A DNA stretch of 33,406 nt from Marmoricola sp. (lineage in GTDB: Bacteria; Actinomycetota; Actinomycetes; Propionibacteriales; Nocardioidaceae). The DNA is taken from NCBI GenBank assembly GCA_025965195.1, contig JAOPXK010000040.1, forward strand, positions 1-33,406, read 5' to 3'. This document shows positions 27,982-31,230 of the stretch, piece after piece. A program made the position numbers and the translations under genes. A model generated the notes under the pieces. That model was given only the letters and a program-made list of their open reading frames with translations. It made no database searches and was not told the DNA's origin. Position 1 is the first letter of the stretch. Every line of letters starts with the position of its first letter.

Positions 27982-28033
27982 GCGGAGGCTGCCACGACTA
28001 GCGTCGCGGATGAGTCCTCGAGGTGATTTCGCC

Positions 28034-30838
28034 ATGGGTTTCACGATCTCCGACCGACCTGGCGCCCGTTGGCCGAACCGACAGGTGCCGTTCGAGATCA
28101 ACAACAGCGTGTTCCCGCCCGGTAGTGCGGCGCAGGCGGCCATCAACCAGGCCGTCAACGCCTGGAACGCGACGGCGGTGGTGACCATCGTCCCGCGCCG
28201 GCCCGGGGACGACGCCTTCATCCTGTTCGGACCCAACGTCGGCGCCTGCAACTCCGGCGTCGGGTTCAACGGCGGGACCCGGACGATCTCGTGCGCGCTC
28301 GTCACGGACCCCGTGGCTGCCGCGGCCACGGCGACCGAGGTCGCCCTCATCCCGCAGACCGACGACGTTCTCACCGCTGCGCTCCTGGACACCACCGGAA
28401 CGTTCATGGTCGCGTGGATGGACGAGGAAGGCTTCTGGCGGCTCCCCACAGCGGTGCCCGGTGTCAGCGGCGTGGCCAACGGGCGGGTCACGATGGCGAA
28501 GCAGACCGACGACGTCCTGGTCGCGACGTTCGTGACCGCCGACGGCGTCTTCGCCGTCGCGCGGGTCGTCCAGACCGGGGCGTGGGAGCCGCCGGTGCGG
28601 GTCGGTGCCCGGGTGGATCCACCCGGCGCCTGGGTCACGCTGGCGAAGCAGACCGACGACATCCTGGTCGGGGCATTCATCGACGGAGGGGGATTCCTCT
28701 CCATCGCGTTCGCGGAGGGGGACGGACCCTTCAACGCCCCCTTCCGGGTGGGCGACCCCATCGGCCGGCCCGGTACGCCGGTAGCGCTGGCCAAGCAGAC
28801 CGACGACATCCTGGTCGCCCTTTTCCTGAACTCCGACGGGATACTCTCCGTGGCTCACGTGGTCGGCACTGGCGACTGGAACCCGCCCGTGCCGATGGGC
28901 GGGGTGACCGGACCGCCCGGTGCCCCGGTCACCTTGGCCAAGCAGACCGACGACATCCTGGTCGCCCTGTTCGTCGACGCAGTTGGCGTGCTCTCGGTCG
29001 CCCACGTGGTCGGGACCGACCCGTGGACCCCGCCGGTGAACATCGGTGGCGAGCATGGGCCAGCGGGAGCGAACGTCTCGTTGATCAAGCAGACCGACGA
29101 CATCCTCACCGCGACCTTCCTCGACACCGCAGGCGCCATGTGCGTGGCGCACGTCGTGGAGACCGAGCCCTGGAACAAGCCGGTGAAGATCGGTGGTCAG
29201 CAGGGCACCCCCGGCGCCCCGATCTCGTTGGCGAAGCAGACCGACGACGTGCTCACCGCGACCTTCGTCGACAGCACCGGCATCCTCTCGGTCGCGCACG
29301 TCGATGGGACCCGTCCCTGGAACGCGCCCGTGCAGCTGGGCGGCCGACCGTTTCCCGCGGGCGCCCGCGTGCACCTGGCCAAACTGCACGATGTCCTGGT
29401 GGCAGCGGGTGTCGACAACACCGGACGATTCGTGGCCGGGTCGGTCAAGGGAACCGGTGCCTGGGCGCCACCCGGACCGATCCGGTCCGGGACGTTCAGC
29501 GCGCGGAGCATCGTGCACGAGATCGGGCACGCGCTGGGGCTCTTCCACGAACACCAGCGACCCGATCGGGAGAGCTTCGTGAGGTTCAACGGCGGCGCCG
29601 TCGCGTTCAATGCCAAGGACTTCCAGATCATCACCGACGGCATCCCACTCAATCCCTACGACTGCACGTCGATCATGCACTATGGACCGACGGCCTTTGC
29701 GCGGCCAGGGGCGGGCAACACGCTCACCCCGCTCGGGCCGGCCTGTGCCGGGATTGGCACCGCCAACACCCCCAGCCCGGGCGACGTGGCCGCGGTCGAC
29801 TCCCTCTACCGCGGGCAGGTCGCCCTCCCCGGCACCCCCGTCGCCTTGAACCAGCAGTTCGGCACCACCGACTGCCTCTACGTGGACCTCAACGGGATCC
29901 TCAGCGTCGCCTGGGTCGTCGAAGCCGGCGTCTGGAATCCCGGCATCGTGATCGGCGGACCCCCTGCACCGGCGCGGGCCCACGTGGCGGAGTCCCGGCA
30001 GTCGGCGATGACCGTCACCGGCGCCTACACCGACACCAACGGAGTGCTCCAGATCGCGCACAAGGTCAACAACGGGCCGTGGAAGCTGCCGTTCCCGGTA
30101 GGTGGGCCGGGCGGTCAGCCCGGTGGGGGAGTCTGTCTGGAGAAGCAGAACGATGACGTCTTCACCGCTACCTTCGTGGACCGCGACGGATTCTTCTCGG
30201 TCGCGCACGTCGTGGACGACGGGCAGTGGAACGCACCCTTCCGGGTGGGCGACCCCGGCGGCCAGCCCGGTGCCGTCGTCGCTGCCTGCCGGCAGACCGA
30301 CGAGGTCTTCACAGCGGTGTCCACCGACCGTGAGGGGTTCTTCTCGGTCGCGCACGTGGTCGGCAACGGAGAGTGGAAACCGCCATTCCGGGTCGGCGTA
30401 CCTGGTGGCTTCCCCGGTGGCGGGATCGCGATGACCAAGCAGAACGACATCACCATGACCGCGGCCTTCATCGACCGTGACGGCTTCTTCTGCGTGGCTC
30501 ACGTCGACGGCACCGACCTCTGGAATCCACCAGTGCGTGTAGGCGAGCACGTCGGTGCGCCGGGAGGGCACGTCGCGCTCGCCAAGCAAACCGACAACAT
30601 CCTCACTGCCGCGTTCCTCGATGGCGACGGCTTCATGCGGGTGGCACACGTGGTGAACAACGAGCCGTGGAACCCGCCGGTGCGGATCGGCGGGCAACCC
30701 GCCACGCCCGGTGGCGGCATCTCGCTGGTGAAGCAGACCGACCGCCTGCTGACGGCCGCGTTCTTCGATCCTCAGGGGATGCTGTTCGTCGCTCACGTGA
30801 CCGACACCGACCCGTGGGTCGCGCCGCACCCGATTTGA
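28034..30838 (+). CDS. Astacin-like zinc metalloprotease with a propeller inserted in its catalytic domain and a second propeller at the C-terminus
   Basis: A 934-residue protein. Residues 12-92 look like the N-terminal half of an astacin/matrixin peptidase: RWPNRQVPFEIN, an amphipathic helix with NQAVNAWN, and GGTRTISC. About 390 residues of eight repeats then follow. The zinc helix HEIGHALGLFHEHQRPDR comes next (His495, Glu496, His499, His505), then the Met-turn SIMHY (Met548, Tyr550), then seven more repeats from about 603 to the end. Each repeat is about 49 residues, with consensus near KQTDDxLxATFxD-GxLSVAHVV-W-PPxxIGG, suggesting propeller blades like those of some lectins. No signal peptide or membrane segment is seen, although the family is usually secreted. 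The ATG at 28034 has AGGTGA 7 bp upstream; an ATG at 28010 adds eight residues. Peptidase activity and glycan binding are inferences. A hairpin at 30901-30932 follows. Confidence 0.85.
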   Translation: MGFTISDRPGARWPNRQVPFEINNSVFPPGSAAQAAINQAVNAWNATAVVTIVPRRPGDDAFILFGPNVGACNSGVGFNGGTRTISCALVTDPVAAAATATEVALIPQTDDVLTAALLDTTGTFMVAWMDEEGFWRLPTAVPGVSGVANGRVTMAKQTDDVLVATFVTADGVFAVARVVQTGAWEPPVRVGARVDPPGAWVTLAKQTDDILVGAFIDGGGFLSIAFAEGDGPFNAPFRVGDPIGRPGTPVALAKQTDDILVALFLNSDGILSVAHVVGTGDWNPPVPMGGVTGPPGAPVTLAKQTDDILVALFVDAVGVLSVAHVVGTDPWTPPVNIGGEHGPAGANVSLIKQTDDILTATFLDTAGAMCVAHVVETEPWNKPVKIGGQQGTPGAPISLAKQTDDVLTATFVDSTGILSVAHVDGTRPWNAPVQLGGRPFPAGARVHLAKLHDVLVAAGVDNTGRFVAGSVKGTGAWAPPGPIRSGTFSARSIVHEIGHALGLFHEHQRPDRESFVRFNGGAVAFNAKDFQIITDGIPLNPYDCTSIMHYGPTAFARPGAGNTLTPLGPACAGIGTANTPSPGDVAAVDSLYRGQVALPGTPVALNQQFGTTDCLYVDLNGILSVAWVVEAGVWNPGIVIGGPPAPARAHVAESRQSAMTVTGAYTDTNGVLQIAHKVNNGPWKLPFPVGGPGGQPGGGVCLEKQNDDVFTATFVDRDGFFSVAHVVDDGQWNAPFRVGDPGGQPGAVVAACRQTDEVFTAVSTDREGFFSVAHVVGNGEWKPPFRVGVPGGFPGGGIAMTKQNDITMTAAFIDRDGFFCVAHVDGTDLWNPPVRVGEHVGAPGGHVALAKQTDNILTAAFLDGDGFMRVAHVVNNEPWNPPVRIGGQPATPGGGISLVKQTDRLLTAAFFDPQGMLFVAHVTDTDPWVAPHPI
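28340..29485 (+). repeat. First block of 147-bp coding repeats (about eight)
   Basis: The sequence AAGCAGACCGACGA recurs at 28499, 28646, 28793, 28940, 29087 and 29234, each exactly 147 bp (49 codons) after the last. A more diverged unit lies at each end of the block, giving about eight units. They encode the repeats lying between the two halves of the peptidase. The constant length suggests duplication of a whole blade under selection. Confidence 0.85.
29840..30838 (+). repeat. Second block of 147-bp coding repeats (about seven)
   Basis: The equivalent anchor codons (AAG or CGG, then CAG) fall at 30143, 30290, 30437, 30584 and 30731, again exactly 147 bp apart, with two more diverged units before them. 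The second block is rich in RDGFFSVAHVV-type units, distinct from the ILSVAHVVGT units of block 1, so the two blocks have diversified separately. Confidence 0.85.
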
Positions 30839-30900
30839 CCGCGGCGTACGGGTGAGACCGACCGCAGACAAGAGATTTCGATGTCGCACGTACATGGCAC

Positions 30901-30947: not shown

Positions 30948-31022
30948 TGGTGGGCGATACTGGGTTTGAACCAGTGACCTCTTCCGTGTCAGGGAAGCGC
31001 GCTACCACTGCGCCAATCGCCC
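30948..31022 (-). tRNA. tRNA-Val(GAC)
   Basis: Full cloverleaf. Acceptor GGGCGAT pairs with ATCGCCC. The anticodon stem CTTCC/GGAAG encloses the loop CTGACAC with anticodon GAC. The T-arm contains GGTTCAAACCC-type bases. The 3' CCA is encoded (30948-30950). It is last in the cluster Gly-Cys-Val on this strand. Confidence 0.96.
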
Positions 31023-31064
31023 GTGCTGCACAAGATCCCATAGTGCAGGGATCCCGAGCAATCG

Positions 31065-31135
31065 AGGTGGAGACGGGATTTGAACCCGTGTAGACGGATT
31101 TGCAGTCCGTTGCCTCGCCTCTCGGCCACTCCACC
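31065..31135 (-). tRNA. tRNA-Cys(GCA)
   Basis: Full cloverleaf. Acceptor GGTGGAG pairs with CTCCACC. The anticodon stem ACGGA/TCCGT encloses the loop CTGCAAA with anticodon GCA. The CCA is not encoded. It lies between tRNA-Gly and tRNA-Val, the usual actinobacterial order Gly-Cys-Val. Confidence 0.96.
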
Positions 31136-31157
31136 GTGGAGGCTAAAACATTCTCCG

Positions 31158-31230
31158 AGCGGACAACGAGACTCGAACTCGCGACCTCAACCTTGGCAAG
31201 GTTGCGCTCTACCAACTGAGCTATGTCCGC
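31158..31230 (-). tRNA. tRNA-Gly(GCC)
   Basis: Full cloverleaf. Acceptor GCGGACA pairs with TGTCCGC. The anticodon stem CAACC/GGTTG encloses the loop TTGCCAA with anticodon GCC. The D-arm AGCTCAGTTGGTAGAGC is standard. No CCA is encoded. It is first in the cluster and has a clear promoter upstream. Confidence 0.97.

Follow-up and report, generated by a model that had tools for sequence, protein, structure and literature searches.

The question raised by this locus is whether a single protease domain can be interrupted by a set of propeller repeats immediately ahead of its zinc-binding helix. The locus lies in a stretch of 33,406 nucleotides from Marmoricola sp., referred to here as the window, and the gene concerned (28034-30838, forward strand) encodes what is, judged by its profile matches, a LegP-like bacterial protease of the astacin family (M12A). 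According to the original prediction, residues 12-92 form the first half of an astacin domain, eight propeller-like repeats move the zinc helix about 400 residues downstream, and an intact Met-turn and seven C-terminal repeats follow.

The gene is contained in a single open frame at 28010-30838 on the forward strand, which encodes 942 amino acids when counted from its first ATG and is free of internal stops. The ATG at 28034 is a better, and the likely, start, because a Shine-Dalgarno-like GAGGTG (28020-28025, forward strand, by reading) is located 8 nt in front of it; it is also the start chosen earlier. The GC contents of the three codon positions (0.60/0.56/0.86 in the N-terminal part, 0.62/0.53/0.89 in the catalytic part and 0.68/0.51/0.88 in the whole frame) follow the pattern of coding DNA and resemble those of most of nine further frames examined alongside. 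The slices covering the insert and the C-terminal region were cut with an offset of one base and have this periodicity displaced by one position. The gene is mirrored by an open frame of 965 codons on the opposite strand (27998-30895, reverse strand), and a strong third-position GC bias can give such a frame. No obvious signal peptide was found by reading, as had been predicted, and no export route is visible from the sequence. However, this does not set the protein apart, since the 11 LegP-like relatives described below also have no obvious signal peptide by the same reading; signal-like N-termini were read in astacin-like loci that are further removed, L027 and L031 among them.

Two separate parts of the protein were found to match the astacin domain. 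PF01400 gave two matches in one frame, namely model positions 1-72 at 28067-28294 (24.6 bits) and 79-187 at 29501-29812 (75.7 bits), and the whole protein scored 94.8 bits over these two stretches (cut-off 22.5 bits). MAFFT was unable to split short astacins across the insert and the halves were therefore scored apart. When searched alone, the N-terminal part (28034-28297) matched positions 53-133 of the NCBIfam LegP model with an E-value of 1e-8 (35 bits), and the C-terminal part (29489-29818) matched positions 140-243 with an E-value of 1.5e-24 (86.9 bits), so that only 6 LegP positions (134-139) are absent between them. The same was seen with our own HMM built from 11 uninterrupted relatives (L004, L005, L006, L008, L009, L010, L037, L039, L040, L042 and L048): the N-terminal match covers nodes 9-81 and the C-terminal match nodes 90-191, with only 8 nodes (82-89) absent. 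The N-terminal part scored 37.1 bits against this HMM, the best of 500 shuffles reaching 2.7 bits, and on its own it matches solved BMP1 chains by sequence (E-value 1.2e-4). The halves therefore correspond to successive stretches of a single model, and residues 95-499 stand in the place of about eight positions. On this basis we place the N-terminal half at 28034-28291, ending in TIS and followed by a Cys, the insert of about 405 residues at 28292-29506 (the N-terminal match ends at residue 94 and the C-terminal match starts at residue 500), and the C-terminal half at 29507-29821, all on the forward strand. The catalytic domain is thus not the contiguous one of about 200 residues that is typical of M12A. 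In all 11 uninterrupted relatives, 11 residues reading like TISLGAGCTRGNAIHE lie between the strand end and HE at this site. By comparison with astacin, the insert would come after the final strand of the N-terminal sheet and before the zinc helix.

All residues expected to be needed for catalysis are present. HEIGHALGLFHE at residue 503 conforms to the HEXXHXXGXXH motif with the family-specific Glu of M12A (HEIGHALGLFH at 29516-29548, forward strand, with the Glu following it), and SIMHY, which provides the Met of the Met-turn and the Tyr zinc ligand, is located at 29669-29683 on the forward strand; the meaning of both motifs follows PMC9848320. The zinc ligands, the catalytic Glu and SIMHY are all intact.

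Both repeat arrays, which are of the BP39L lectin type, were delineated by eye. The insert contains eight repeats (I1-I8, 28325-29488, forward strand) of about 49 residues (range 44-50), and seven repeats of 43-49 residues (C1-C7, 29828-30835, forward strand) follow the catalytic domain. The insert matches the BP39L lectin of PDB 6gxr with an E-value of 1.3e-22, and the whole protein does so with an E-value of 1.3e-28, the best stretch being located in the C-terminal array. Against NF052348 (beta propeller lectin domain, cut-off 200 bits) the insert scored 216.9 bits, the C-terminal array 182.5 bits and the whole protein 386.9 bits, and against NF052349 (BP39L family lectin, cut-off 400 bits) the whole protein reached 411.6 bits, the insert alone 194.6 bits and the C-terminal array alone 174.3 bits. 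Both arrays are putative sugar binders by similarity, which does not by itself show binding. Altogether, the profiles support the split-domain reading, and each part of the original prediction, from the first astacin half through the displaced zinc helix and the Met-turn to the numbers of repeats, agrees with what we found.

A second interrupted astacin was encountered in genome G935, which belongs to another family of the same order. When 391 genomes of the order were scanned with PF01400, this genome gave a match to model positions 2-70 only, near a contig end. The corresponding protein (L045) has an astacin N-terminal part ending in GGKQRIGC, followed by propeller repeats, and its frame is open to the contig end. 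It matches LegP positions 50-133 (41.1 bits), so that its match and that of the window protein stop at one and the same model position. The remainder gives a BP39L match of 61.8 bits. The N-terminal regions of the two proteins are 38% identical. In each of these proteins one Cys stands at the breakpoint (TISC in the window protein and RIGC in L045) and another upstream of it (ACNS and ECFS). It should be noted that the contig ends before the zinc helix, so that L045 is known from its N-terminal half and repeats only, and that a search of G935 did not find another piece of the gene. The same interruption at the same point in a second family makes this look like a real new protease layout and not an error. 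The two cases may represent one evolutionary event.

According to PMC9848320, FXGDI is a motif common to the prosegments of animal astacins, where it acts as an aspartate switch. An [FV]EGDI motif is found in frame upstream of the domain in 11 of the 11 uninterrupted LegP-like relatives. In L004 it precedes an in-frame stop near base 1260 that parts it from the catalytic domain, and in L039 and L040 the open frame ahead of it has only GTG codons and no ATG, and their starts are therefore assumed. No motif of this type is present in either of the two interrupted proteins, and neither has the prosegment with its switch that animal M12A members carry. Ahead of the N-terminal half of the window protein there is thus neither a prosegment nor an obvious signal peptide. 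Both interrupted proteins start 12 residues ahead of a conserved Trp, after a Shine-Dalgarno-like site (GGAGG in L045), and this Trp corresponds to residue 10 of mature 1ast_A in the alignment table. Both genes therefore start near the mature N-terminus.

What can be read directly from the sequences is how the parts are ordered, where exactly the domain is broken, that the catalytic residues are intact, that the FXGDI-type motif is missing and that a second family has the same breakpoint. The reading that we favour, and consider somewhat better than evenly probable, is that of an active-type LegP-like astacin with an inserted eight-repeat propeller of the BP39L type and a second, seven-repeat propeller behind the catalytic domain. 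As judged by the profiles, the two halves would fold together into one catalytic domain. The two ends of known propellers lie close together, and the inserted propeller would project from the strand-helix loop beside the cleft. It may be anchored there by a Cys pair like C64-C84 of astacin, which is one of the two disulfides of that enzyme (PMC9848320). Both propellers could bind glycans and may keep substrates that are glycosylated or part of the cell wall in position at the active site, by analogy with the fibronectin modules of MMP-2/9.

Alternatively, the insert might mainly be a gate that has taken over latency from the lost prosegment and covers the cleft until a glycan or a partner binds. 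This is suggested by the absence of the FXGDI-type motif from both interrupted proteins, when it is present in all 11 uninterrupted relatives, and by the position of the insert, which joins the strand-helix loop beside the zinc helix. However, there are only two cases, possibly derived from one event, and the same facts fit an always-on enzyme. We therefore regard the gate as possible but unlikely. A similarly speculative extension is that of a mobile, prosegment-free astacin in which the propeller took over latency and the cleft opens only on glycan binding, as a convergent bacterial counterpart of the gelatinases in another metzincin family; we give this only about one chance in a handful.

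Somewhat less probable still is a decaying or non-catalytic chimera, in which a propeller duplication landed in a protease and the product merely binds. Both astacin halves have, according to the profile scores, diverged from their uninterrupted relatives: they score 37 and 88 bits against our HMM, well under the 104-146 and 171-211 bits of the 11 relatives (leave-one-out), and the C-terminal half is without the HNFDQHI stretch. Reduced or lost activity of the window protease is therefore possible. Furthermore, the repeats of the insert and the C-terminal array share 24-65% pairwise identity with a weak trend towards the same order (permutation p-value of 0.026). Yet every catalytic residue is kept, the 942-codon frame has no stops and shows the GC pattern of coding DNA, and a second family has the same breakpoint. 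We do not claim that the insert arose by duplication of a whole propeller, because an order shifted by one repeat scores the same as the in-register order (shifts 0 and -1 score alike).

A very unlikely explanation is that misassembly or contamination has joined unrelated repeats. The genome is a draft of 200 contigs and the gene is repetitive, but both junctions are in frame, the repeat copies are no more than about 60-77% similar to the reference copies at the DNA level, and the independent case of L045, with the same breakpoint in another family, argues against misassembly. In addition, the contig is anchored in the genus. A cluster of tRNA-Val, tRNA-Cys and tRNA-Gly genes (30948-31230, reverse strand) lies directly downstream, about 110 bp from the end of the astacin gene, and its order beside an aminotransferase gene is kept in all 18 other genus genomes in which that gene was matched (19 of 21, the window's own included). 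By this synteny, the contig is one of the genus. Equally improbable is the view that residues 9-94 are an unrelated domain in front of a truncated peptidase, since this part, which is the weaker of the two halves (37 bits), matches LegP (E-value 1e-8) and BMP1 (E-value 1.2e-4) and far exceeds the best of the 500 shuffles (2.7 bits).

The outer flank of the tRNA cluster varies within the genus: of the 153 pairs that can be formed among loci L053-L070, only 2 are similar (blastn over 150 bp) in the first kilobase outside tRNA-Val, and none of six window proteins sought beyond tRNA-Val in the genus genomes was found there. Such variability is typical of an insertion hotspot. On the L045 contig there are genes for a MobL relaxase and a coupling protein of the TraG/VirD4 type, together with an integrase match slightly short of its cut-off; from these gene contents, L045 probably lies on a conjugative element. 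The interrupted astacin gene is probably carried along by mobile DNA. A separate observation concerns contig C43 of G935, which bears genes for a MobL relaxase and a coupling protein of the TraG type. This contig encodes a protein of 1863 residues (L074:3666-9257, reverse strand) with MDACFDGDFDGDAVAVV, the DFDGD of which we take to be the RNA polymerase motif. The protein gave ordered weak matches, below the Pfam cut-offs, to Rpb2 domain 6 (987-1012) and Rpb1 domain 2 (1375-1442); it had no match in PHROG, and its best PDB match was a chain named tape tail measure protein (E-value 6.6e-4). It is possibly a fused, very divergent RNA polymerase of the multisubunit type on a conjugative element.

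To judge how rare the layout is, PF01400 was used to scan overlapping samples of 391 genomes of the order, 394 of the class, 396 of the phylum and 24 of another class, and matches were obtained in 53, 30, 11 and 3 genomes, respectively. Among the fetched loci, to which this count refers, L045 was the one further interrupted case and all others were uninterrupted by reading; the count leaves out those rows of the order scan that have no locus and whose model ranges are confined to the surroundings of the zinc helix. Scans of 148, 396 and 197 genomes with the whole protein or the profile of the N-terminal part revealed no further case, the protein-query scan of 396 genomes being weaker than the PF01400 scans as it scored only 2 candidates per genome. 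L048, which the N-half profile picked up, is a normal astacin with no interruption, and L017, L019 and L030, which do not have the strict zinc motif, read HQIGH for the expected HEIGH, i.e. they have no catalytic Glu, and are uninterrupted. A scan with the whole protein for exact 8-residue patterns gave one locus, L007 (tblastn E-value 6e-6 over 29 residues), which was deemed a chance match and set aside because the FNAKDFQI stretch reads as part of an unrelated oxidoreductase-like protein. No relative was found on viral contigs and no tblastn match in phages. Among plasmids, 12 records match (by query range, 9 to the astacin C-terminal half and 3 to the propeller), none of which covers 80% of the query. 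In the titles, abstract starts and passages of the literature searched, no astacin interrupted by a propeller was described, and the words 'propeller' and 'insertion' are absent from the text available of the astacin review PMC9848320. The propeller-split astacin therefore appears to be real and rare, as originally proposed, and not a common known architecture; its function would follow from the similarities described here.

Of the systems already known, the LegP-like astacins (NF045530; PF01400) resemble the window protein, with the catalytic domain recognisable in both halves, HExxHxxGxxHE and SIMHY, and L004, L005, L006, L008 and L037 also have a C-terminal repeat array. They differ in that the window protein has an interrupted domain and no prosegment motif, and its score of 111.6 bits is far under the 300-bit cut-off of the LegP equivalog NF045530. 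In L004, L005, L008 and L037, which are uninterrupted and from the same phylum, the C-terminal arrays are of several unlike kinds, which suggests that the tail domain of LegP-like astacins is swapped often. Crayfish astacin, BMP1 and meprin (M12A) share the fold family, the C64-C84-like Cys pair and the family-specific Glu, but they have an uninterrupted domain, a signal peptide and a prosegment. The seven-bladed BP39L/PLL lectins (NF052349, NF052348; PDB 6gxr) have the repeat type common to the insert and the C-terminal region; PLL3 binds fucose and O-methylated glycans (PMC6943638). Here, however, two arrays of 8 and 7 repeats occur in one protease with putative sugar binding, and the eight repeats of the insert do not match the seven blades of the PLL-type lectins.

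The closest functional parallel, by analogy, would be the gelatinases MMP-2/9, which combine an insert in the catalytic domain with a terminal propeller. Their insert lies just before the zinc helix. According to PMC10418771, PMC10910010 and PMC8238946, it consists of three fibronectin type II modules that hold gelatin and collagen, and the propeller is of the four-bladed hemopexin type. Thus, a metzincin catalytic domain, a substrate-binding insert and a C-terminal propeller would be common to both, whereas the gelatinases belong to another metzincin family and are secreted zymogens with a prosegment. The window protein itself was rejected as a matrixin (PF00413, 20.2 bits, under the 24-bit cut-off), and its Pfam matches are limited to Astacin, Matrixin and Reprolysin_4, with no fibronectin type II module among them. 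Should both halves contribute to a single active site, a large ring-shaped domain would be nested in the strand-helix loop before the metzincin zinc helix, and this position could be tested as a general docking point for substrate-binding domains. Since neither interrupted protein has the prosegment motif, a link between latency and the insert can be tested as well. Astacins, BP39L-type lectin repeats and gelatinase-type inserts are all known already; what is new, on the present sequence evidence, is a propeller inside an astacin catalytic domain. If this holds true, another family has reused the insert site of the gelatinases, with a binding module unrelated to theirs.
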